Virus record (IMG/VR): IMGVR_UViG_3300006928_000067
Coordinates: 1 to 25,468 of that record
Reading direction: 5' to 3' (one strand)
DNA from: a virus
Length of the DNA stretch: 25,468 nt
The position numbers were made by a program, and so were the translations under genes. Under the pieces are notes generated by a model. It did no database searches and had not been told where the DNA came from. It was given only the letters and a program-made list of their open reading frames with translations. Of the stretch, positions 5,923 to 20,413 are shown in pieces; within the stretch, counting starts at the first letter, position 1, and each line of letters starts with the position of its first letter.

Positions 5923-7491
5923 ATGGAATATAATCAACCTAGCTTAATTGTTAAGGATTTAAACTTTGGCGATAATGCCAAAGAGAGGATAATTTTAGGT
6001 GTGGATAAACTTGCTAAGGCAGTCAAATCCACCCTAGGCGCCTCTGGGAAATGTGTGATATATGAAGATGGTAGAGGCAAACCGGTGATTACAAAAGACG
6101 GTGTAACCGTAGCAGAATCGGTTGTCTTATTTGACCCGGTTGAAAATATGGGTGCCACTTTAATTAAAGAGGCTGCTAAAAATACAGTAAAAGAAGCTGG
6201 AGACGGAACAACAACCGCAATAGTTTTAGCAGAATCATTACTGAAACATGTAGATGATAAGGACTATGGAGCTTCAATTAGAGAAATTAAAGAAGGAATT
6301 CAATCCGGTATTAAAAAAGTACAAAAATATCTAGACACAAACAGTATACAGATTAAAGGAGATTTGTTAAAACACGTGAGTAGTATTAGTTGTAATAACG
6401 ATAATGTACTTGGGAAAATCATATCAGAAGCATATGAAAAAGTAGGTAAAGATGGTGTTGTATTAATGGAGGATTCTGATACAGAAGAAACGTTTACTGA
6501 TATTGTGGATGGGATACAAATAGATAGTGGGTTAACCTCACCTCATTTTGTTACAGATAAAGATAAGCATAGATGTATTTTAGAAAATCCTTATGTTTTA
6601 GTTGTATCTTCACCTATACCAAATTTAAGAAAAATACAAAATATACTAGAACAAATTATTAAAACTAAAGCGAGTTTATTAATAGTTGCAGAAGTTGATC
6701 AACAAGCAAAAGCAGCATTATTAATGAATAAGATGAAAGGTAATATTAATATTAATATTATTGATCCACCGGGTTTTGGTCCAACAAAAGCAGATACAAT
6801 AGAAGATTTAGCTATATTAACAGGGGCAAAAGTAATTAATGAAGAACTTGGGGATGATTTAGAGTTAATTGAACCACACACGCTCGGTAGAGTAGATAAA
6901 GTTATTACCGATGATAAAAACACCGTATTAACTGTTAACGGTGGAGGAGAACAACTAAAAGAAAGAATCGCTTCAGTTAAAAAACTAATTAAAAAAGAAA
7001 AGAATTCTTTTATTAAAGAAAAACTACAACAACGATTAGCAATGTTAAGTGGTAGTGTGGGAATGATTTATGTAGGTGCTAATTCAAAAGTAGAATTAAA
7101 AGAAAAGAAAGATAGAGTTGAAGATGCTATTTATGCTACAAAAGCAGCATTAAAAGAAGGTATAGTACCAGGTGGTGGTATAGCTTTATTAAATGCTGCA
7201 AATAATATGAAAGCAGAGAATATTGGGGAGAAGATACTAGCAGAAGCCATAAAATCTCCATTCATAACTATTATGGAAAACGCAGGTATCGAAAACTACG
7301 AAACACCTACCACCAAAGGTGTTGGATTTAATGTAATTTCCGGTGAAAAAGTTAACATGATTAAATCTGGAATCGTAGACCCCGTCTTAGTAACAAAAAC
7401 CGCATTAAAAAATGCAATTAGTGTAGTTAATACTATTATTTCTGCAGACTGTGTAGTTTCTAATATGAGAGTAGAAAATGCAAGCGGTTAA
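5923..7491 (+). CDS. groEL: Phage chaperonin GroEL (60 kDa chaperonin)
   Basis: ATP-dependent group I chaperonin; the ring folds proteins in the cytoplasm with a GroES lid. All nucleotide-site motifs are present: TKDGVTVA with K58 and D59, GDGTTT at 93-98, VEDA with Asp401, GGG at 417-419 and the VDP Asp486. The apical domain keeps the PHFVTD and PGFGP landmarks. At 522 residues it is shorter than the 548 of E. coli, and it ends NMRVENASG without the usual Gly-Gly-Met tail. It overlaps groES by 14 bases, in the reverse of the bacterial groES-groEL order. Divergence throughout argues for a long phage history rather than recent capture. Likely clients are the large virion proteins of this block (inference). 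Confidence 0.97.
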   Translation: MEYNQPSLIVKDLNFGDNAKERIILGVDKLAKAVKSTLGASGKCVIYEDGRGKPVITKDGVTVAESVVLFDPVENMGATLIKEAAKNTVKEAGDGTTTAIVLAESLLKHVDDKDYGASIREIKEGIQSGIKKVQKYLDTNSIQIKGDLLKHVSSISCNNDNVLGKIISEAYEKVGKDGVVLMEDSDTEETFTDIVDGIQIDSGLTSPHFVTDKDKHRCILENPYVLVVSSPIPNLRKIQNILEQIIKTKASLLIVAEVDQQAKAALLMNKMKGNININIIDPPGFGPTKADTIEDLAILTGAKVINEELGDDLELIEPHTLGRVDKVITDDKNTVLTVNGGGEQLKERIASVKKLIKKEKNSFIKEKLQQRLAMLSGSVGMIYVGANSKVELKEKKDRVEDAIYATKAALKEGIVPGGGIALLNAANNMKAENIGEKILAEAIKSPFITIMENAGIENYETPTTKGVGFNVISGEKVNMIKSGIVDPVLVTKTALKNAISVVNTIISADCVVSNMRVENASG

Positions 7492-7735
7492 TTATTATTT
7501 AGTAGTAGATCCTATTAAGGATAAGGATAAGAAGATTGGTGGTCTACTTATATCTGATACTTTAGATGTTGACCATAGGTATTCAAAGGGTACAATTATT
7601 ACAAAAGGTAATCTTGTAGAAGGTGTTAATAATGGTGATATTATACATTATGATAAACACGCTGGACATCAGATACACTGGAAAGATAATGTATATGAGG
7701 TAATTAAAGCCCCTGATATTGTACTGGTAGAATGA
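7478..7735 (+). CDS. groES: Co-chaperonin GroES
   Basis: 85 residues, slightly short for the family (about 97). The mobile loop GGLLISD (residues 21-27) matches the GroES GG-I/V/L-x-L signature that binds GroEL, and the core GDIIHYDKHAGHQIHW and the C-terminal DIVLVE follow the family pattern. It would cap the phage GroEL ring as a heptamer. It starts inside the groEL end (14-base overlap) and its stop overlaps the next gene as ATGA, so all three are translated together. The roof of the dome is probably reduced given the length. Confidence 0.92.
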   Translation: MQAVNYYLVVDPIKDKDKKIGGLLISDTLDVDHRYSKGTIITKGNLVEGVNNGDIIHYDKHAGHQIHWKDNVYEVIKAPDIVLVE

Positions 7736-8675: not shown

Positions 8676-11600
8676 ATGGCAAGAATCAGTGGGTATGCTC
8701 CAGATACCGATGTAACAAAATTAGACAAAATAATTGGATCCGATTCATCTGGTGCAACTAAAAATTTTCGCATTGAAGATGTATCTAATTATTTTAAAAA
8801 TTCCAATTCATCAGGTATTGCTGGACAATTTACATGGCAGTATAAAATTAATGTTGTAAATAATATTGGTGACGATGGAATGATGAATATTACCACATCA
8901 GAAGGTAGTACATCATTTGCCAACATCACATCAATTAAAGTTAGTAAATGTATTTATGAAAATTCCCCTAATTCTATAGCAGATGCCCTCCCTGTTTTAA
9001 ATAATAAAGATCTTTTAATTGTTGATGTAAGTAATCACAACAATTGGGGTATATATACCGCAGGAACTGTCGCGGTAGATGGTTCTGATTTTAATTTCTA
9101 TAACCTATCCCTTACTTATCTTAATGAGGGTAATGGTAATCTCTCCGAAAATGTAGTTTATGGTGTTGCTGTACTAAAACAAACTGTTGGTACTGCACCA
9201 AAGGTAACTGTTACTGATAGTAATACTGATACAGCTTTTCCAGTTGTGTTTCATGATGAATCGAATAGTTTACTTGATGATACGGGTAGATTTACATATA
9301 ATCCTAATGATGGTATATTATCAATACCAGAAATATACAATACTGCCCTTACGTTAGGTAGAGACACAAGCAATAAAATAACATTCGCTGTAGATGATCA
9401 AATATGGTTTCAAGTTGCTGATGCTGGTCAATTTAAAATAATATCTAACGAAATACAACCAACCTCTAGTAATTCAATTGCTTTAGGGGATTCAACATAT
9501 ACATTTAAAGAATTATACCTTCACGGAGGAAATATTACATCTCCTTCATCTTCTCAATTAGATTTTACTACAACAACTGCTAATTTCTCTGGTTCATTAA
9601 GACTAGATAGCGTAAGTATATCAGCAATACAAAAATCATCAGAAGCGTTTGCTGATAATGATACAAGTTTAATGACATCGGCCGCTATTGATGACAGAAT
9701 AAATGCGGCTACACCAGCGCCCGATAGTTTATCATCAGTTCTTACCACAGGTAATACTACTGGTAGTACTAAAATTGAAGTTGATAACACATCTAGTGGG
9801 ATAGATTTTATTGATGATGCCAAGCTAAGATTTGGTACCGGTGATGATGTAGAAATATACGTTGCAAGTAATAATAATCTAAGTATAACACAAAATGCAG
9901 ATGACGCAACTATTACTTTTAGTAGTGATAACGGAAGCGGTGGTACAGCACCATATTTCGAAATAAATGGTGCCACAGAGAGAAATCATTTTCACAAAAC
10001 CACCAATTTCACTGATAATGCCAAGATAACAGTTGGTGCTTCTGAAGATCTTCAAATTTATCATGATGGATCAAATAGTTATATAGTACAAGGCGATGGC
10101 GCCCCAATTACGGGTGGTTTAATAATTAACTCACCATCTATTAGTGGTACAGCTATAAAAGACGAAGACAATATGGCTAGTGATTCAGCCACTCATTTAG
10201 CAACACAACAAAGTATTAAAAAATATGTAGATGATCAGGTAGATACAGTTGATACTTTAGCGGAAGTGTTAGCAATAGGTAACACCACAGGTGGTACAAA
10301 AATAGAGATTGATAACACGTCTGGTGGTATTGATTTTATTGATAGTGCTAAATTAAGATTTGGAACTGGTGATGATGCTGAAATATATGTTAATATAGGA
10401 AATGATTTATATATTGACCAAACAGCAGATGATAGATTTATATATATCCAAGCAGATGATGGTTCAGGTGGATTAACACCATATATTACAATAAATGGTG
10501 GTAGCGAAAGAGTACTAATCGATAAAGAAACAAGATTTGGATATGATGACGTCGGAGCTGATGTATACTTCTATGGTGCTACATCAGGTATAGCCATGCA
10601 ATGGAGACCCGCATCAGATGGATTAAACTTTAAAGACAACGCGAAAATAAATATGGGGGATAGTAATGATTTCCAATTTTATCATTCGGGTTCAAACATG
10701 TCATTCACAAATACAACCGGAGGCTGTACTTTTATTAATAATACCGCTGGTGCTCATTATGGTTTTCATACAGATGAATTTTATATTAAATCTACAGTCG
10801 CTAATGATCCATTGGTATATATACTAAATACTGCAAATGATGCAACTTCGAGTAGATTACAATTTAAGAAAGATAGACACAGCGCCGCTGGTGTTAATGG
10901 AGATGATATTGGTACAATAGAATTTAATGCTGGTAATTCCGCACAAGAGCAAACTGATTTTGCAAAAATAATCGGAGAAATTGCAACAGCAACCGATACA
11001 GATGAAGCTGGTAAATTATCATTACAAGTTGCATCTAGTGATGGATCCACATCTGGTTTAACTGATGGTATTATATTAACAGGACATGCTACAAGTGATT
11101 ATGTTGATGTAACAATTGGCGGTGGATCAAGTTCAACAGTAACAATATCTGGTAATTTACAAGTTTCAGGTACCACCACAACTGTTAATTCAACCACAGT
11201 AACTCTCAATGATCATAATATAGTATTAGATAGTGGTAATAGTACATCAGCTGTTGTTGATGGTGCTGGTATTACAATTGAAGGAGGTTCTGGTGATGAT
11301 GCAACATTTACATATAGTACAACTGGTCCTAAATTTGAAATGAAACTTGGTAGTGCTTATGAAGACTTACAAATAGCTAAATTAATAGCAACCGAACTAG
11401 ATATTTCAGGTGATGCAGATATAGATGGAACTATGGAAGCTGACGCATATACAGTTGACGGAACTGCATTAAATGAATACATCGCTGATACCGTTGGCGC
11501 AATGTTCACGGGTAATACGGAAACAAATATTACGGCAACATATCAAGATGGTGATAACACGATAGATTTAGTTGTTGGTACTCCTGGTACTGTCACGGTA

Positions 11601-12896
11601 GCGGATTCTACTGCTAATACAGCATTTCCTGTAATATTTCATGATGAGTCAAATGGACTATTAGATGACACTGGGGCATTCACATATAATCCTTCAACTG
11701 GTCAGTTAGATGTTACTGGTGATACTAAAATTAACTCAGGTAGTTTATATATAGAAACATCAGATAATACATCAGGTAAAATATATCTAGGAAAAACTTC
11801 AGGAACGCAAGCCAGTTCGTTAATATCAGCTACACACACTTTAGAAATAGATTACAATACACATACTGATTCAGGTGTTTTATATATTCAAAGTAATGGG
11901 TCAAATGTAGCATACTTTCAAACTGATGGTACGTTTACTCATTTAGGAGAAATTGAAGCTGTTACATTAGACATATCTGGCAATGCTGACATCGATGGAA
12001 CATTAGAAGCAGATGCATATACAGTAGATGGAACAACATTAGCAGAATATATATCTGATACAGTTGGGGCTATGTTTACAGGTAACACTGAAACTGGAAT
12101 CACCGCAACGTATCAAGATAGTGATAACACAATAGATCTTGTTGTGGGGTTAGCTAGTACGATTACAGTAACTGATTCTACAGCTAATACAGCGTTCCCT
12201 ATAGTATTCCATGATGAATCAAATGGTTTATTAGACGATACAGGAACATTTGAATATAATCCTAGTGCTAATAGATTAATATTTGGTGATGCAGCGGGTG
12301 TTGATCTTATTATTGGAAAAAGAGAGGATGCTGATGTTAGTGGTACTTTACCTAGTGGAACAGATGCACTATGTCATATATTTCATCCAAGCGCAACCTC
12401 TGGTGCAGGTACTGGTTTAACGTTTGATAATATGCAAGCGTGGGCATATGGATCGTGGGAGTTTGAAGGAAGCAGCGTTACATTTAGTAATGGTATGGAC
12501 GTAACAGGTGATGTAGAGGTAAGTGGTAGTGTTAAATGTACTCAAAATTTAAGAAGAACTATAACAGCTGTTACACATAGTACCAATACGTTTACATGTA
12601 CTTTAACAGCCAATGATAACTTTAGCTTTACATTAAATAATGCTACAAATACAATCAATATTGTAGCAGCTTCAGAAAATGTTGGGCAATCAGGAACAAT
12701 AGTTATAACAAATCCTTCAAGCGTTGGATCATTAGCTGTTAATGCAATACAGGGAAATGGTAGTGCATCAGAAGTATTAACACCAGAGGGCGCAACGATT
12801 AATTGGCCTACAGGTGCAAATAATATTAATATTATGTCATATTATGTTGCTGCTGCCGATAAAATATTAATCAACTTTGTTGGTAACTTTGCTTAA
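8676..12896 (+). CDS. Large modular tail-fibre protein, 1406 aa
   Basis: Giant fibre built from marine-phage fibre modules. N-cap MARISGYAPDTDVTKLDKII is like that of the 537-aa fibre. A module TAFPVVFHDESNSLLDDTG occurs three times (starting near residues 181, 977 and 1167). KIE(V/I)DNTSxGIDFID(D/S)AKLRFGTGDD occurs twice (about 360 and 535), and ADIDGT(M/L)EADAYTVDGT plus AMFTGNTETxITATYQD occur twice. TTTVNSTTVTLNDHNIVLDS is also typical of the class. The C-cap (TIVITNPSSVGSLAVNAIQG onward, ending INFVGNFA) is a known style of fibre end. An upstream in-frame ATG at 8628 lies inside the holin gene; 8676 is preferred because it restores the MARIS cap and follows the holin stop by one base. 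Confidence 0.87.
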   Translation: MARISGYAPDTDVTKLDKIIGSDSSGATKNFRIEDVSNYFKNSNSSGIAGQFTWQYKINVVNNIGDDGMMNITTSEGSTSFANITSIKVSKCIYENSPNSIADALPVLNNKDLLIVDVSNHNNWGIYTAGTVAVDGSDFNFYNLSLTYLNEGNGNLSENVVYGVAVLKQTVGTAPKVTVTDSNTDTAFPVVFHDESNSLLDDTGRFTYNPNDGILSIPEIYNTALTLGRDTSNKITFAVDDQIWFQVADAGQFKIISNEIQPTSSNSIALGDSTYTFKELYLHGGNITSPSSSQLDFTTTTANFSGSLRLDSVSISAIQKSSEAFADNDTSLMTSAAIDDRINAATPAPDSLSSVLTTGNTTGSTKIEVDNTSSGIDFIDDAKLRFGTGDDVEIYVASNNNLSITQNADDATITFSSDNGSGGTAPYFEINGATERNHFHKTTNFTDNAKITVGASEDLQIYHDGSNSYIVQGDGAPITGGLIINSPSISGTAIKDEDNMASDSATHLATQQSIKKYVDDQVDTVDTLAEVLAIGNTTGGTKIEIDNTSGGIDFIDSAKLRFGTGDDAEIYVNIGNDLYIDQTADDRFIYIQADDGSGGLTPYITINGGSERVLIDKETRFGYDDVGADVYFYGATSGIAMQWRPASDGLNFKDNAKINMGDSNDFQFYHSGSNMSFTNTTGGCTFINNTAGAHYGFHTDEFYIKSTVANDPLVYILNTANDATSSRLQFKKDRHSAAGVNGDDIGTIEFNAGNSAQEQTDFAKIIGEIATATDTDEAGKLSLQVASSDGSTSGLTDGIILTGHATSDYVDVTIGGGSSSTVTISGNLQVSGTTTTVNSTTVTLNDHNIVLDSGNSTSAVVDGAGITIEGGSGDDATFTYSTTGPKFEMKLGSAYEDLQIAKLIATELDISGDADIDGTMEADAYTVDGTALNEYIADTVGAMFTGNTETNITATYQDGDNTIDLVVGTPGTVTVADSTANTAFPVIFHDESNGLLDDTGAFTYNPSTGQLDVTGDTKINSGSLYIETSDNTSGKIYLGKTSGTQASSLISATHTLEIDYNTHTDSGVLYIQSNGSNVAYFQTDGTFTHLGEIEAVTLDISGNADIDGTLEADAYTVDGTTLAEYISDTVGAMFTGNTETGITATYQDSDNTIDLVVGLASTITVTDSTANTAFPIVFHDESNGLLDDTGTFEYNPSANRLIFGDAAGVDLIIGKREDADVSGTLPSGTDALCHIFHPSATSGAGTGLTFDNMQAWAYGSWEFEGSSVTFSNGMDVTGDVEVSGSVKCTQNLRRTITAVTHSTNTFTCTLTANDNFSFTLNNATNTINIVAASENVGQSGTIVITNPSSVGSLAVNAIQGNGSASEVLTPEGATINWPTGANNINIMSYYVAAADKILINFVGNFA

Positions 12897-12908: not shown

Positions 12909-15077
12909 ATGAGAAATTTATTTGCTTTTTTAAAGAAAGATTCTTGGTCGACATCCACATCTACTGTAGTTAGTACAAGTAAGTCAACCACTACGTCTTG
13001 GTCAACAAGCAAATCTACTACAACAGTTTACAACACAGGGACAAATACAACGACAACTTACAATACAAGTACTAGTACTGTGGTGAGTACAAGTAAGTCA
13101 ACAACGACTACTTGGAGTACTAGTAAGTCAACTACAACCACATACAACACATCTAAAAGTACTACAACTACTTTTAACACATCTACAAGTACAACTACCA
13201 CATATAACACTTCCACGAATACTACGACAACATATAATACTTCTACTAATACAGTAGTTTCTACGTCGAAAAGCACAACTACCACATGGTCTACGAGTAA
13301 AGCAACATCAACGGCGTATGAAACAAATCATAGTACGACCACCACATATGAAACAAGTAAATCCACTACAACTGTATATAATACTAGTACCACTACCGTT
13401 GTAAGTACTAGTAAATCTACTACCACAACATGGAGCACAAGTAAATCCACTGCAACAGTTGTAAGTACAAGTAAATCTACTACTACGGTGTATAATACAT
13501 TGAGAAGTACTGATACAACATATAATACTACTAAGTCTACAACTACTACATACAATACAAGTACCAGTACAGTTGTAAGTACAAGTAAAACAACAGCAAC
13601 TGTAGTATCAACTAGCAAATCTACTACTACCACATATAATACTAGTAAGTCAACAACCACTACGTATAATACATCAACGGCGACTACTACAGCTTATACT
13701 ACCACGTGGGCTACAACTCGATCAACTAATGAAACTTCATCAACAAGTAAGAGTACTACTACCACGTATAATACTAGTACAGCAACTACAACTACATATA
13801 ATACATCAACCGCAACAACAACAGCATATACTACTACTTGGGAAACTAGTAAAAATACCGCGGAAAGTAGATCGACTACAACTACATACTCAACAACAAC
13901 AACTTTTAACACTAGTACAGCAACCACCACAACATTTAATACTACTACAACTACAACTATAGGAACAACTACCACGTGGGCAACCAGTAAGAATACAGCG
14001 GAATCAAGAAGTACTACTACTACGTATGAAACAACTACGGCGTTTAACACTACCACGACCACAACTATAGGTACAACAACTACTTGGGCTACTAGTAAAA
14101 ATACAGCAGAATCAAGAAGTACAACTACAACGTATACGACAAATACAGTGTTTAATACTACTACCACTACAACTATTGGTACAACTACAACCTGGGCTAC
14201 TAGCAAGAATACAGCCGAAAGTAGATCAACTACTACAGCATATACTACAAATACGGTATACAATACCACCACGACTACTACTATAGGTACTACAACCACT
14301 TGGAATACAAGTAAAAGTACAGCTGAGAGTAGATCTACCACAACAACGTATGATACAACAACAACATATAATACCAGTACCACAACACAGCATTCTACAA
14401 CAACTACATGGACAACAACATTCGATACAACAACTACTTTTAATACTAGTCAAAGTACCACAACACAATATACAACAACGTGGACTACTACATTTGACAC
14501 AACAACTACGTTTAACACAAGTCAAAGTACCACAACGCAATATACCACTACCTGGACAACTACGTTTAACACGACAACCACATACAATACTAGCAAAAGT
14601 ACAACAGAAAGTAGAAGTACAACAACTACATATGACACAACAACCACATGGCAAACTAGTTCGATAACTAGTAAATCTACTACTACGACTTGGACAACGA
14701 CATTTAATACAACTACTACGTATGAAACAAGTAAAAGTACAACGGAAAGTAGAAGTACATCTACCTCTAGATCTACAACTGAGACATATAATACTAGTAG
14801 AAGTACAACTACAGTATATTCAACTAATACAACAACAGAATATACTACGTATTGGAATACTAGTCATTCTACCGCAACAAGTCATTCTACCACAACAGCA
14901 TATACTACTACATGGTCAACTAGTTGGAATACAACATATAACCAAAATACATATACATCCTACACATCATATTGGAACACATCAAGAAATACAGCTTGGA
15001 ATACCACGCGTACTACTTCAACTTCAAGTAGTGGCGGCGGCGGTGGCGGCGGAGGTTGTGGCAGGGGATGTCAATAA
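12909..15077 (+). CDS. Giant Thr/Ser-rich repeat protein A, 722 aa, with Gly8-Cys C-terminus
   Basis: After a short cap (MRNLFAFLKKDSW) nearly all residues are Thr or Ser, with an aromatic about every ten positions. The usual unit is ten residues, STTTTYNTSK-like, mixed with eight-residue VVSTSK units. From about residue 300 longer units appear: GTTTTWATSKNTAESRS four to five times and two identical 24-residue units starting at W501 and W525. The C-terminus is TSTSSSGGGGGGGGCGRGCQ. It looks fibrous, either beta-solenoid or an extended O-glycosylatable mucin-like rod. It follows the large fibre gene by 12 bases, so a tail or surface appendage is likely. Function is not known to me. Codons within repeats are scrambled while the peptide is kept. 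Confidence 0.8.
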   Translation: MRNLFAFLKKDSWSTSTSTVVSTSKSTTTSWSTSKSTTTVYNTGTNTTTTYNTSTSTVVSTSKSTTTTWSTSKSTTTTYNTSKSTTTTFNTSTSTTTTYNTSTNTTTTYNTSTNTVVSTSKSTTTTWSTSKATSTAYETNHSTTTTYETSKSTTTVYNTSTTTVVSTSKSTTTTWSTSKSTATVVSTSKSTTTVYNTLRSTDTTYNTTKSTTTTYNTSTSTVVSTSKTTATVVSTSKSTTTTYNTSKSTTTTYNTSTATTTAYTTTWATTRSTNETSSTSKSTTTTYNTSTATTTTYNTSTATTTAYTTTWETSKNTAESRSTTTTYSTTTTFNTSTATTTTFNTTTTTTIGTTTTWATSKNTAESRSTTTTYETTTAFNTTTTTTIGTTTTWATSKNTAESRSTTTTYTTNTVFNTTTTTTIGTTTTWATSKNTAESRSTTTAYTTNTVYNTTTTTTIGTTTTWNTSKSTAESRSTTTTYDTTTTYNTSTTTQHSTTTTWTTTFDTTTTFNTSQSTTTQYTTTWTTTFDTTTTFNTSQSTTTQYTTTWTTTFNTTTTYNTSKSTTESRSTTTTYDTTTTWQTSSITSKSTTTTWTTTFNTTTTYETSKSTTESRSTSTSRSTTETYNTSRSTTTVYSTNTTTEYTTYWNTSHSTATSHSTTTAYTTTWSTSWNTTYNQNTYTSYTSYWNTSRNTAWNTTRTTSTSSSGGGGGGGGCGRGCQ
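14409..14552 (+). repeat. Tandem 24-codon repeat with identical protein but different codons
   Basis: Units 14409-14480 and 14481-14552 encode the same 24 residues (WTTTFDTTTTFNTSQSTTTQ plus YTTT). By my codon-by-codon comparison 11 of 24 codons differ, all synonymously, and none changes the residue. This is an internal repeat of Thr-rich protein A. Confidence 0.85.
15032..15055 (+). repeat. Poly-glycine tract, GGC-rich
   Basis: Eight Gly codons, mostly GGC, make the most GC-rich stretch of this AT-rich window. Elsewhere Gly is usually GGT or GGA. It ends Thr-rich protein A, followed by CGRGCQ. Confidence 0.8.
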
Positions 15078-15083
15078 AAATAT

Positions 15084-15098
15084 TAATAAATACGTAAT
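15084..15098 (+). promoter_or_regulatory. Weak late-promoter-like box upstream of the methyltransferase-Hint gene
   Basis: TAATAAATACGTAAT in the 30-base gap contains AATAAATACG, sharing the ATAAATAC core of the left-arm elements, 10 bases before the ATG at 15108. Only the core is present, without TTAC or AGATAATA, so it may be chance in AT-rich sequence. Confidence 0.25.
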
Positions 15099-15107
15099 AA
15101 TTACACT

Positions 15108-16160
15108 ATGGCAACAGATTTTCAAAAGGGATACAAGGCGGCAACACTAACATTTGAGAGTGATAAAATTACTTTTCAAAATGCGGTAAATAATGATAAG
15201 TTTTCTCCAGGAGCATATGAGGTAATGATGGACTGGGAACAACCTATTATGGAAAAAATGGCAGAAATTGCTGTATCCGAAGGGGACCATGTTCTTGAAT
15301 GTGGTTTTGGTATGGGTATATTGTCTAATGCTATTCAAGCTAGAAAACCAGCATCACATACTATTTGCGAGAACCACCCAGATATAATACCTAAATTAAG
15401 GGCGTGGGCTAGCGGTAAATCTAACGTTATTTTACATGAAGATAGATGGTACACATTGATTGAAGAAACTGGTAGATACGATGCAATATTAATGGATACA
15501 TACGCTGATGATGATTTACATCCACGATTAGTGTATTTCTGTAGAAACAAAGGCGCGAAATCAGGTTGTAAAATTAGTTGGTGGAATTGGAGTGGTGGTA
15601 CAACAGATGAATATATGAAATTTTATTGGGATAATGTATCATTTACTGAAATGGACGTAGATCCACCTTTAAATTCATATTATAATCATGGAAAGTATTA
15701 TGTACCATTAAAAGTGTTAAATCCCAACGCAACAAGTTATGGTATAATAAATGACGCTGTAGTACATATCTCTGATTCTGAAACAAAACAAATTAACGAT
15801 ATTCCTTCTAATCATGATATTTTAACATGTGCGGATCCATCAAACCCTAGTTTAGTGGTACAAAAAAGTATAAAAAGTTGGGGAATGAAATGTAAAGGTA
15901 TTTATAATATTAACGATGGATTATTAAAAGTAACTGGTAATCATCCTATGATTGTAAAAAGAAGTGGATCATGGGTAAATAAAAAAATGAATGAATTAGT
16001 TGTTGGTGATAAATTATATAAAATAGATAACACAGAGGTGGAAATTACTAAAATAGAGTTTGATAGTTCAGATACTATTTATGAAATCTTTAATGTTAAT
16101 ATTGATCATAATCATTTTATTAATAACATTTTAATTAGGAAAGGGGGCGCTGATGCCTAA
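15108..16160 (+). CDS. GAMT-like methyltransferase fused to a degenerate Hint domain, 350 aa
   Basis: Residues about 30-205 match the guanidinoacetate/arginine N-methyltransferase type of SAM-dependent enzyme: EVMMDWEQPIME (38-49), the SAM loop LECGFGMGI (63-71), acidic ENHPD (88-92) and DAILMDTYADDD (125-136). Residues about 212-350 look like a Hint (Hedgehog/intein) domain: a strand pattern VVHISDSETKQINDI, block B TGNHPMIV with His279, ELVVGDKLYKI, and the end block DHNHFINNILI. The splicing residues are missing: no Cys or Ser at the expected first position, and the terminal His-Asn is replaced by RKGG. Self-splicing is therefore unlikely. It lies between the two Thr-rich genes and overlaps the second by eight bases. 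It might methylate a virion component. Confidence 0.7.
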   Translation: MATDFQKGYKAATLTFESDKITFQNAVNNDKFSPGAYEVMMDWEQPIMEKMAEIAVSEGDHVLECGFGMGILSNAIQARKPASHTICENHPDIIPKLRAWASGKSNVILHEDRWYTLIEETGRYDAILMDTYADDDLHPRLVYFCRNKGAKSGCKISWWNWSGGTTDEYMKFYWDNVSFTEMDVDPPLNSYYNHGKYYVPLKVLNPNATSYGIINDAVVHISDSETKQINDIPSNHDILTCADPSNPSLVVQKSIKSWGMKCKGIYNINDGLLKVTGNHPMIVKRSGSWVNKKMNELVVGDKLYKIDNTEVEITKIEFDSSDTIYEIFNVNIDHNHFINNILIRKGGADA

Positions 16161-18306
16161 TACCACAACAACATTTCAAACTAGTGTTACAACTACATAC
16201 CAAACAGGTGTAGGTACAGGACGTGCCACAGGTACATCATGGACGGTTAGTACATCACAAAATACAAGTCAAGCTACTAGTAAGTCTACTACCACAACTT
16301 ACAATACAACAACTACATATCAAACAAGTGCGGTAACTACTAAATCTACAGCAACTCAAACTAGTAGATCTACCACTACCACATGGTCGACCAGCCATAA
16401 TACAACAACAACTTTTAATACAACAACAACATATACCACAACAACCACATATAACACAAGTCATGCAACATCAACCTCAAGAAGTACTAGCCAGAGTACA
16501 ACAACAACGTATACCACATATTGGAATACGTCTCGTTCCACAGCAACGAGTCATTCTACCACAACTACATACACTACAACTACCACGTATGAGACAAGTC
16601 ATGCTACCTCTACGTCGAGAAGTACAAGTTCGTTAACGACTAAATCAACAACAACTACTTGGTCGACGAATAGAAGTACATCTACATCACGAAATACGAG
16701 TTCATTAACTACTAAATCTACTACAACCACTTGGTCAACAAATAGAGCCACTGCTACGTCAAGAAACACTAGTCAAAGTACCACAACAACATACACAACC
16801 ACTTGGTCAACTAGTAAAACTACTTCAGAGCAAAGAAGTACGACAACGGCATATACTACAACAACTACATATAATACGAGTACTACTACGCAAACTGCCT
16901 ATACTACAACATGGTCAACTAATAAAAATACCGCTGAAAGTAGAAGCACTACCACGGCATACACTACGAGTACCACATTTAACACGAGTACCACAACACA
17001 AACCGCATATACAACTACTTGGAGTACTAATAAAAATACTACCGAATCAAGAAGCACTACAACCGCATACACTACTAGTACTACATTTAATACAAGTACA
17101 GCTACACAAACAGCTTATACAACTTCGTGGTCTACAAGTAAATCAACAACTGAATCAAGGAGTACTACAACAGCGTATACCACAAGTACAACGTTTAATA
17201 CGAGTACAACCACACAAACGGCTTATACCACAACGTGGTCAACTAACAAATCAACAACCACTACTTGGTCCACAAGTAAAAGCACTACAGAGAGTAGATC
17301 AACAACAACAGCATATACAACATCAACTGCTTTTAATACATCTACAGTAACTAGTAAATCAACTAATACAGTGGTTAGTACAAGCAAATCTACTACTACA
17401 ACTTGGAGTACGAGTAAAAGCACAACAACAGTGTATAATACAACTACAGCTACCACAACAACATTTAACACATCTACAGTAACTAGTAAGTCGACAAATA
17501 CTGTGGTGTCGACGAGTAAATCTACTACGACAACGTATGAAACAAGTAAATCCACCACAACAACATATAATACCTCTACTGATACGACAACAACGTACAA
17601 TACAGCAACAACCACCGTGGTATCAACAAGTCATAGTACTAATACAGTATACAATACAGCGAGAAGTACAAACACGACGTATAATACAAGTAAGAGTACA
17701 ACAACTACATATAATACTTCTACTAATACAACAACAACTTATAATACTTCTACAAATACAACAACCACATATAATACTAGTACCGCTACCGTTGTAAGCA
17801 CTAGCAAGAGTACCACAACAACGTATAATACGTCTAAAAGTACCACTACAACTTATAATACAAGTACAAATACTACAACAACATTTAATACTAGCACCGC
17901 TACCACCACCACGTATAATACAAGTACAGCTACTGTTGTTAGCACATCGAAATCTACCGCTACTGTTGTTAGTACTAGTAAAGCTACAACAACAACTTGG
18001 GCTACAAGTAAGTCTACTACTACGACATACGAAACAAGTAAAAGTACTACAACTACATTTAATACGAGCACGGCTACCACTACTACATACAATACGGCAA
18101 CAACAACAGTCGTAAGTACTAGTAAAGCAACGGCAACGGCTCAGGTTAGTACAAGTAAAAGTACTACGACAACATATAACACAAGTACTGCTACAACCAC
18201 AACATATAACACAGCAACAAGTACAATGACAACAAAATCGTGGTTTAGTACATATCGGTCAGATTGGTCTACACAGCGAGTGGATTGGAACCGATCTACT
18301 GCTTAG
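16153..18306 (+). CDS. Giant Thr/Ser-rich repeat protein B, 717 aa
   Basis: Second protein of the same style as A: start MPNTTTTFQTSVTTTYQTG, then hundreds of Thr/Ser with regular Tyr, Trp or Phe. Early units resemble TTTTYETSHATSTSRSTS, middle units AYTTTWSTNKNTAESRSTTT repeated about five times with STTFNTSTTTQT spacers, and the last third returns to STTTTYNTSK and VVSTSK units. The C-terminal cap is Trp-rich and non-repetitive (KSWFSTYRSDWSTQRVDW), perhaps for attachment. No Gly-Cys tail. Its start overlaps the methyltransferase-Hint stop by eight bases and is the only start here preceded by a G-rich, Shine-Dalgarno-like run (GGAAAGGGGG). Likely a partner of protein A in a surface fibre. 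Confidence 0.8.
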   Translation: MPNTTTTFQTSVTTTYQTGVGTGRATGTSWTVSTSQNTSQATSKSTTTTYNTTTTYQTSAVTTKSTATQTSRSTTTTWSTSHNTTTTFNTTTTYTTTTTYNTSHATSTSRSTSQSTTTTYTTYWNTSRSTATSHSTTTTYTTTTTYETSHATSTSRSTSSLTTKSTTTTWSTNRSTSTSRNTSSLTTKSTTTTWSTNRATATSRNTSQSTTTTYTTTWSTSKTTSEQRSTTTAYTTTTTYNTSTTTQTAYTTTWSTNKNTAESRSTTTAYTTSTTFNTSTTTQTAYTTTWSTNKNTTESRSTTTAYTTSTTFNTSTATQTAYTTSWSTSKSTTESRSTTTAYTTSTTFNTSTTTQTAYTTTWSTNKSTTTTWSTSKSTTESRSTTTAYTTSTAFNTSTVTSKSTNTVVSTSKSTTTTWSTSKSTTTVYNTTTATTTTFNTSTVTSKSTNTVVSTSKSTTTTYETSKSTTTTYNTSTDTTTTYNTATTTVVSTSHSTNTVYNTARSTNTTYNTSKSTTTTYNTSTNTTTTYNTSTNTTTTYNTSTATVVSTSKSTTTTYNTSKSTTTTYNTSTNTTTTFNTSTATTTTYNTSTATVVSTSKSTATVVSTSKATTTTWATSKSTTTTYETSKSTTTTFNTSTATTTTYNTATTTVVSTSKATATAQVSTSKSTTTTYNTSTATTTTYNTATSTMTTKSWFSTYRSDWSTQRVDWNRSTA

Positions 18307-18333
18307 GTAGAAACTAGTAAAAACATGTAATAA

Positions 18334-18345
18334 TATAAATACAAT
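18334..18345 (+). promoter_or_regulatory. T4-late-like promoter box TATAAATACAAT
   Basis: It lies in the 58-base gap after Thr-rich protein B, 19 bases before the glycosyltransferase-like start (18365). It matches the TATAAATA late box and the core of the left-arm elements (ATAAATACxAAT), but on the plus strand. The second block is only partly kept (ATTTAATA instead of AGATAATA). Confidence 0.4.
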
Positions 18346-18364
18346 ATAAATTAAATTTAATAAT

Positions 18365-19270
18365 ATGGAAATGTTTAATAAAAACGAGTTGGATAAACGA
18401 ATAGGTCCACTCAAAAAAACAAAAAACCTTGAAGATCTAGAGCAGGTCGAGGGCTATGTAATAAGAAAATGTAGTGAAAGAGGTTTGGAAAAAAGTTATG
18501 ATGTTTTGGCAGAAGAAATGCCATACTTCAAAACAATGGCATATACAGAATTTGCCACTAATTTTTACATACAACCATTAAATGTAAAACTTAGAAATGA
18601 AATGATGATTGATGCGTGGAATGATAACGTAAAAAATCCAGATGATTGGTCATCATATCTAATAAATAATGTGTTGAAAAAATCTGTTAATAAATATCAA
18701 GACAGAGGAGAAAATTTTGATAAATATCCAGCTAAAGATTATTTAGTTGTATTACCAGGTTCAAACAAAGTTAAAACTAATGTTTGTTTAAATAGATTGC
18801 AATTTATATCTAAAAAACACGGTGATAATGTTTATTTTAAACCTCACCCAATAACAACACATCAAATAATTGGTGAATTAAAAGATTTTTTTGGAGAAGC
18901 TAATATATTACCAAGAGAAATTGATATGTATTATTACATGCAAAAAGCAAAAGGTGTATATACAACACATATAAGTGAAAGTGCTGTTTATGCTGGTGTT
19001 CTTGGCAAAATAATAGAACCAATTGATATATGGAATAATATCATGCACGGATCATTTGCTTGTATAAATAATCATTTATTTACCAATCAAGATAATATAA
19101 AAGATTACATAAATAGATGTTTTTCAAGTTATAAATCTGGTATTATTAATCCAGTTATAGATAAAGATTGGAAGAAAAAAGTAGATCAATATTTTGATTA
19201 TATTTGTAAAAAAAGAGATGTTTATAAAAACTGGTTTATTGATACAAGAAAACCAAAAGGAAAAAAATAA
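18365..19270 (+). CDS. Glycosyltransferase-like protein (GT-B / capsule-synthesis type), 301 aa
   Basis: N-terminal 120 residues are helical and charged. From Y126 (YLVVLPGSNK) the pattern turns to a Rossmann-like beta/alpha domain: VYFKPHPITTH (156-166), then VYTTHISESAVYAGVLGKII (198-217), then EPIDIW. The KPHP motif followed by a S/E-rich SESAVYAGxLGK loop is typical of GT-B enzymes of capsule, polysialic-acid and CDP-glycerol transferase types, where these loops bind the sugar-phosphate donor. Only the C-terminal half of that fold is obvious, so the acceptor side may be divergent. It directly follows the Thr/Ser-rich genes behind its own promoter-like box; Thr/Ser side chains there are possible acceptors (inference). 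The family call is moderately secure, the substrate unknown. Confidence 0.6.
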   Translation: MEMFNKNELDKRIGPLKKTKNLEDLEQVEGYVIRKCSERGLEKSYDVLAEEMPYFKTMAYTEFATNFYIQPLNVKLRNEMMIDAWNDNVKNPDDWSSYLINNVLKKSVNKYQDRGENFDKYPAKDYLVVLPGSNKVKTNVCLNRLQFISKKHGDNVYFKPHPITTHQIIGELKDFFGEANILPREIDMYYYMQKAKGVYTTHISESAVYAGVLGKIIEPIDIWNNIMHGSFACINNHLFTNQDNIKDYINRCFSSYKSGIINPVIDKDWKKKVDQYFDYICKKRDVYKNWFIDTRKPKGKK

Positions 19271-19621: not shown

Positions 19622-19823
19622 AATTAGCGTTGGTAAAGATTACAAAAATGAAGCTATGCATTATGCCGTTGGCCAAGAGGTTTACGGCGGGCATACTATT
19701 TGTGATATATTAGAGGAGGATACAAAATACAGTATTTATATAAAAAAAGATAAAGATATATTACCATGGAAAGATTTTAATAAAAACATGGCAGTATCTA
19801 TTGAGTATAATCTTGAATATTAA
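19602..19823 (+). CDS. Hypothetical protein, 73 aa
   Basis: Starts MSRVIRKISVGKDYKNEAMH and continues as a small beta-rich domain (VGQEVYGGHTICDILEED, KYSIYIKKDKD), ending VSIEYNLEY. It overlaps the 88-aa gene by 20 bases and shares one base with the next start (TAATG at 19823). No catalytic motif is visible. It sits with the genes leading into terminase and portal, so it may act in virion assembly. Confidence 0.65.
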   Translation: MSRVIRKISVGKDYKNEAMHYAVGQEVYGGHTICDILEEDTKYSIYIKKDKDILPWKDFNKNMAVSIEYNLEY

Positions 19824-20413
19824 TGCGTAGTTTATATAATTTTATAATTACACCAATAGGTAAAAGATATAACAACACTAAAAAGGTTGGTAAAAAAAAA
19901 CTTATATTAAATGCTGAAATTGGTAATCATCAATATGTGAATAGAAAAGCTAAAGTTTTATCTATACCAATATTAGAAAAAACAGATATACAACCTGGTG
20001 ATACTATAATAGTACATCATAATGTATTTAGAAGGTGGCATAATATAAGAGGTGAAGAAAAAAATAGTAAAAGCTATATAGATGAAAATACATATGCGGT
20101 AACAAAAGATCAAGTATTTTTATATAAACGTAACAAAAAATGGATCTCTCCATTTGGATGTTGTTTTGTAAAACCAATTAAATCTTATGATACATTAAGT
20201 ATTGATAAAGAACAACCATTAATTGGCGTGTTAAAATATACAGATAACACGTTACCAAATATACATGTTGGAGATCTAATAGGATTTACACCGTATAGTG
20301 AATATGAATTTATCATTGATGGTGAAAGATTATATAGAGTTTTTACACAAGACATTTCAATTAAATATGAATATCAAGGACAAGAAGAAGAATATAATCC
20401 AAGCTGGGTATAA
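19823..20413 (+). CDS. Protein with two GroES-like domains, 196 aa
   Basis: The sequence reads as two halves with the co-chaperonin pattern. Half 1: FIITPIGKRYNNTKKVG, LILNAEIGNHQ, KAKVLSIPI, PGDTIIVHHNVFRRW, TKDQVFLYKR. Half 2: CCFVKPIKSYDTLSI, IGVLKYTD, VGDLIGFTPYSEYEFIIDGE, RLYRVFTQDISIKYE. The half-2 segment VGDxIxFxPYSEYEFxIDGE followed by DI closely follows the GroES roof-to-C-terminal strand pattern. Typical GGIVL mobile loops are not obvious (LILN in half 1 is the nearest). It may be a divergent co-chaperonin or a virion protein built from the fold. It ends inside the small-terminase-like gene. Confidence 0.55.
   Translation: MRSLYNFIITPIGKRYNNTKKVGKKKLILNAEIGNHQYVNRKAKVLSIPILEKTDIQPGDTIIVHHNVFRRWHNIRGEEKNSKSYIDENTYAVTKDQVFLYKRNKKWISPFGCCFVKPIKSYDTLSIDKEQPLIGVLKYTDNTLPNIHVGDLIGFTPYSEYEFIIDGERLYRVFTQDISIKYEYQGQEEEYNPSWV

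Follow-up and report, generated by a model that had tools for sequence, protein, structure and literature searches.

We consider it likely that two threonine-rich proteins encoded in this viral DNA, here called ThrA and ThrB, pair antiparallel and in register as beta-strands of a single long, thin virion fibre, which a glycosyltransferase-like protein (GT) encoded downstream probably decorates. The window, that is the whole stretch of DNA analysed, is a sequence of 25,468 bases from a marine bacterial virus (IMGVR_UViG_3300006928_000067). An earlier note, made from its letters, had delimited at 12909-19270 a four-gene cassette, in which a methyltransferase-Hint gene (MT-Hint) lies between the two Thr-rich genes and a KPHP-type glycosyltransferase gene follows; all four are real genes, found at those positions on the + strand. 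The small gaps that it described after the fibre gene are also present, with 12 nt from the fibre-like ORF to the start of ThrA, 30 nt between ThrA and MT, an overlap of 8 nt between MT and ThrB, and 58 nt between ThrB and GT. The features are as follows:

8676..12896, + strand: fibre-like protein, 1406 aa, the ORF directly 5' of ThrA (PHROG 29834, E=2.7e-7; synteny)
12909..15077, + strand: ThrA, 722 aa, chain A of the proposed fibre (two-residue alternation)
12909..12947, + strand: conserved N-terminal segment of ThrA, the proposed virion-proximal end, MRNLFAFLKKDSW; in relatives MKNLGFTKKDFW or MKWLWNRIDFW
15033..15077, + strand: C-terminal tip of ThrA, the proposed distal end, GGGGGGGGCGRGCQ
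15108..16160, + strand: MT-Hint, 350 aa (ORF)
15108..15722, + strand: methyltransferase domain, GAMT family, DTY motif kept (profile match)
15744..16142, + strand: degenerate Hint (intein-like) domain (profile matches, motif inspection)
16153..18306, + strand: ThrB, 717 aa, chain B, antiparallel to ThrA in the proposed fibre, A residue n opposite B residue about 705-n
18238..18306, + strand: conserved C-terminal motif of ThrB, at the proposed ThrA N-terminus end of the fibre, SWFSTYRSDWSTQRVDWNRSTA
18365..19270, + strand: GT-like protein, 301 aa, carrying the motifs PGSN and KPHP; in several phage groups unrelated to one another, linked to Thr-rich proteins

ThrA consists of 47% Thr and 16% Ser, and ThrB of 46% Thr and 18% Ser. 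All four Thr codons are in use, and comparison of relatives gives a dN/dS of 0.09-0.25 in either gene, so these proteins are not low-complexity noise; the dN/dS values also imply that selection acts on the protein. A two-residue phase runs through both chains, with large residues on one face and T/S/N/A on the other: across all loci, successive W/Y/F/K/R residues fall at even versus odd spacings in a ratio of 4107:255 in A and 4082:268 in B (~94% even), the Thr regions contain few turn residues (Gly, Pro, Asp and similar), and breaks in the phase are almost absent. Each chain may form an extended beta-strand, its small face composed of T/S/N/A and its large face of T plus Y/W/F/K/R. The Thr-rich proteins had no match in Pfam, PHROGs or NCBIfam, and ThrB had none in the PDB; tblastn of both against phage records also returned nothing with low-complexity masking on, and is hence uninformative. 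The AlphaFold2 model of ThrA alone (pLDDT 35) is not interpretable. An ice-binding TxT surface was considered for these proteins, and set aside.

Searches of IMG/VR with MT-Hint and GT as queries yielded more than 100 loci. The Thr regions of A and B (about 300-1,420 aa) correlate in length at r=0.986 across 33 complete pairs, surplus length in either being mostly a C-terminal or inserted domain. When A is compared with reversed B, a sharp single-residue peak appears, which for the window's own pair reaches r=0.49 at offset 13, versus 0.16 in the parallel direction. The antiparallel score exceeds the parallel score in 33/33 pairs, and with 200 spacing-preserving shuffles per pair as the null, the observed antiparallel value is never attained in 30/33; over the first half of L109, L125 and L137, antiparallel r is ~0.8. 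For 14 of the 16 A proteins, the cognate B scores best among 16 candidates, and at coincident aromatic positions W stands opposite F 93 times, where permutation gives 41 on average and 58 at most. Such co-evolution of the sequences strongly supports antiparallel pairing of A and B.

The strength of this signal varies between loci. It is weak in L037, L062 and L063, L128 is in register over part of its length only, and the register of the window's pair shifts by ~6 residues in the second half; L213 and L220 have no antiparallel preference, and in L220 parallel similarity is higher. In a gapped test, part of A resembles part of B in the same direction, and some repeats are therefore shared; coarse composition profiles do not clearly separate the two directions. 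A non-Thr domain of ~110-190 aa is inserted in one chain only in L109, L125 and L137 (ThrA) and in L083 (ThrB), and past it no clear register is resolved.

Length changes in one gene are also compensated in the other. A single 68-aa indel per gene separates L100 from L102, at 125 in A and at 136 from the C-end in B, and the two 68-residue insertions differ in sequence; between L062 and L063, changes of -12, +8 and +2 occur in both genes at mirrored places. Across eight pairs of relatives, some with members in common and the counts hence not wholly independent, 16 of the 37 indels in A are matched by one of equal size at the mirrored place in B, versus 3.0±1.6 at random and 1 in the parallel direction, and 68/73 indels are of even size.

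These observations bear on what kind of structure the two proteins form. The earlier note had envisaged a mucin-like coat, and if ThrA and ThrB were largely disordered, sugar-coated glycoproteins comparable to serine-rich repeat adhesins, then a Thr+Ser content of 63-64%, alternating residues and an adjacent GT would all be expected; such a coat has no need of matched lengths, antiparallel register, a W:F preference or even-sized compensated indels, and we regard it as improbable. Together with the alternation, these features point instead to an ordered two-chain beta-fibre. There is similarly little to recommend two separate homo-oligomeric fibres, matched in length through repeat-array recombination or a shared external ruler. 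Some same-direction repeat likeness between the genes, and the more parallel L220, are in keeping with such fibres, but gene-to-gene copying would not give equal-size mirrored changes of differing sequence, and reversed residue order cannot come from DNA duplication or inversion. An antiparallel pair that is coiled or stacked, as in a beta-solenoid-like fold or short repeating hairpins, would make a fibre much shorter than extended strands do. Spacings of 10 and 36 residues, which recur in the Thr-rich proteins, favour this arrangement, yet the rarity of turns and nearly unbroken phase of the Thr regions make it unlikely.

In the extended two-chain fibre that we prefer, ThrA and ThrB would be antiparallel and in register over nearly their full length, and the ThrA N-terminus and ThrB C-terminus, which are the conserved ends, would therefore share one end of the fibre. 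That end would be proximal, and is the probable site of attachment; the variable ThrA C-terminus (a Gly/Cys tip, S74 chaperone or other domain) and the ThrB N-terminus would form the distal tip. If each chain is one continuous strand at ~0.33 nm per residue, then the fibre would measure roughly 230 nm in this phage. Its placement on the virion is suggested by two features that we counted for fibre context, namely that the cassette follows a fibre-like gene (in relatives often broken into smaller ORFs ahead of ThrA, by synteny), and that ThrA of relatives carries a C-terminal Peptidase_S74 domain (L029, E=1.2e-5, above the cut-off). The window's own ThrA has no such C-terminal domain, and ends in GGGGCGRGCQ; in most relatives with MT-Hint the tip is GG-C-x-RGC(Q/I)-like, and in others S74-chaperone-like or other domains take its place. 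As for the number of strands, an A3B3 stoichiometry is plausible where ThrA bears the trimeric S74 chaperone; the antiparallel A:B relation seen in sequence could coexist with a trimer of A chains.

Some relatives have a single Thr-rich gene, and in 14/17 of these a turn-like or Cys/Gly-rich patch lies at 0.46-0.54 of the chain. They fit the idea of a one-chain hairpin that was later divided into two genes. This idea rests on the mid-chain turn or tip, because residue-level mirror symmetry within the single-chain homologues is not significant save in L155 (p=0.007; ~17 tested). In L213 (2392-3543) a Thr-rich protein terminates in an apparent Hint domain (FCNGILTHN), and more than one arrangement may thus place Hint at the fibre tip.

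The linkage of GT to Thr-rich genes is conserved. Of 63 distinct close GT relatives whose loci extend 400 nt or more upstream, 62 have a Thr-rich ORF immediately 5' of GT, the sole exception being a broken GT gene, and the order ThrA, middle gene, ThrB, GT recurs in nearly all loci that span the cassette. With a broader GT profile, 54/60 diverse relatives have a Thr-rich ORF ≤1.5 kb upstream, Thr-rich ORFs making up 77 of the 525 ORFs in diverse GT loci (GT-adjoining ones counted in). The same GT family lies beside Thr/Ser/aromatic-rich proteins in the Caulobacter phages Lullwater and BL198 (T7-like), more weakly in Cr30, and in the Vibrio phages KVP40, D484, F86 and D479. The proposal of the earlier note that the genes act as one unit is upheld by these counts, GT being mostly found with Thr-rich genes rather than apart from them. 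Stenotrophomonas phage DLP6 has no Thr-rich neighbour of GT within the 1.8 kb covered, and the cassette is absent from the corresponding place in elemo phages and MW202828. In KVP40-like Vibrio phages, Thr/Ser/aromatic-rich ORFs lie next to GT at L140:3887-4480 (KVP40.0254), L141:3961-4494, L143:3891-4448 and L144:3939-4451; a turn-like Cys/Gly patch occupies the centre of several of them, and the ORF by the GT family is unannotated in D484 (L141) and F86 (L143).

The GT assignment itself is the weakest within the cassette. The KPHP motif named in the earlier note is conserved, but there is no Pfam match and the GT-B-like fold matches are weak, the best being UDP-GlcNAc 2-epimerase in the PDB (E=9e-4), with TagF and SenB weaker; the family corresponds to PHROG 26179/30602, whose function is not annotated, and the structure model has a pLDDT of 73. 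Gene linkage, the one basis for the role, makes GT most likely the dedicated sugar-adding enzyme of the A/B fibre, and it would probably glycosylate the outward face by transferring sugar to Thr/Ser. A possible, less probable role is that GT acts on a host surface polymer or on phage DNA, and relates to the fibre through adsorption only. The weak fold match, from which the acceptor is not predictable, leaves room for this, and phage glycosyltransferases that modify host O-antigen or DNA are common; against it, a Thr-rich protein is the constant partner of the GT family in several unrelated phage groups.

The methyltransferase assignment made earlier stands, MT-Hint matching the guanidinoacetate N-methyltransferase (GAMT) family (PDB 3orh, E=7e-17) with the catalytic DTY motif aligned. 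The Hint claim fares less well: weak domain matches exist (Pfam Intein_splicing, E=0.005; an intein-containing PDB chain, E=4.6e-4), but the domain looks degenerate, lacking the C-terminal His-Asn of autoprocessing (the end reads NNILIRKGG), with the block B His lost in L035. A methyltransferase role in the cassette, as the earlier note had it, is weakly supported: a GAMT gene is present here, but elsewhere A-B-GT is kept without a middle gene (L183, L214, L220), and homologues of MT are also found away from Thr-rich genes. The methyltransferase is an optional cassette member, missing from some loci and otherwise of two types, namely MT-Hint of the GAMT family or a second, shorter methyltransferase with weak class-I methyltransferase- or spermidine synthase-like matches. 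An enzyme of GAMT type points to guanidino (arginine) methylation of a putative substrate; it would be accessory, and might act on the fibre or on the tip. In a different phage (L012:2584-10558), a GAMT-like methyltransferase lies right after a 2,467-aa fibre-like ORF of Gly/Ser/Thr repeats.

Downstream of the cassette lie small genes, the terminase and the portal. As the terminase resembles those of Flavobacterium elemo phages (~45% identity; 62% to uncultured podovirus MW202828), and a contig binned to a Flavobacteriales MAG contains a close GT relative, the host is likely to be flavobacterial. Promoter- and terminator-like sites in the window show no excess over shuffled sequence, and searches for tRNA and Rfam RNA found none. 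GroEL and GroES genes, together with a gene for a second GroES-like protein (PHROG 13932, E=8e-20) that lies just 5' of the terminase and is kept in relatives, occur at 5923-7735 and 19823-20413, and two adjoining small ORFs on the - strand (1897-2139 and 2207-2446) are apparent duplicates (ILFSYTTD...NLDYILI).

We know of no described fibre of two-chain antiparallel Thr-rich architecture, and found none in the open-access literature. Known trimeric phage fibres consist of identical parallel chains. The cassette resembles phage tail fibres and spikes (homotrimeric and beta-structured, some with a Peptidase_S74 intramolecular chaperone) in following a fibre-like gene, in encoding a long beta-rich protein, and in the conserved N-terminal segment, variable C-terminal domain and, in relatives, S74 domain of ThrA; it differs in having two separately encoded, length-matched chains that would run in opposite directions. 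Phage-encoded glycosylation of virion proteins exists, for example in mycobacteriophages, and likewise a GT gene here adjoins structural genes; the family is, however, a separate one (PHROG 26179/30602), and the glycan is putative here. Closest in layout are KVP40.0254/KVP40.0256 and Lullwater gp41/gp42, in which a Thr/Ser/aromatic-rich protein precedes the same GT family, but as a single chain with a mid-chain turn-like or Cys/Gly-rich patch, which may represent the A/B pair as one hairpin chain.

Serine-rich repeat proteins (SRRPs; Fap1, GspB, L. reuteri SRRP), as summarized in PMC5207161 and PMC6291802, combine alternating Ser/Thr repeats with dedicated glycosyltransferases next door. ThrA and ThrB share the long alternating Ser/Thr repeats and adjoin GT, itself a weak assignment; SRRPs, in contrast, are single-chain bacterial cell-surface adhesins rather than two mirrored phage partners, and in ThrA/ThrB large aromatic residues stand in fixed phase. 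No cell-wall anchor or accessory secretion genes were seen within the window, which is a virus fragment. The pond-water glycofibrils resolved by cryo-EM (CryoSeek II, as cited in PMC12967142) are described there as extended tetrapeptide repeats under a glycan coat, with the gene not identified. Going by that description, they share with A/B the long extended peptide repeats and a glycan coat, which for A/B is proposed, and differ in their tetrapeptide repeat.

By a small degree we favour a new fibre class, comprising two chains of hundreds to nearly two thousand residues that would form antiparallel continuous beta-strands with W/F, Y/Y or Y/W pairing, one-chain hairpin relatives and a dedicated glycosyltransferase. 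The mirrored indels make this reading directly testable. If it is correct, then matched-length chains zipped in opposite directions would represent a new way of building long fibres, with pairing that is readable from sequence, and would serve as a natural model of long filaments built from beta-strands. It would also account for a class of Thr-rich genes that lack annotation, one of them in the well-studied phage KVP40, and would indicate that phage fibres may have a dedicated modifying enzyme.
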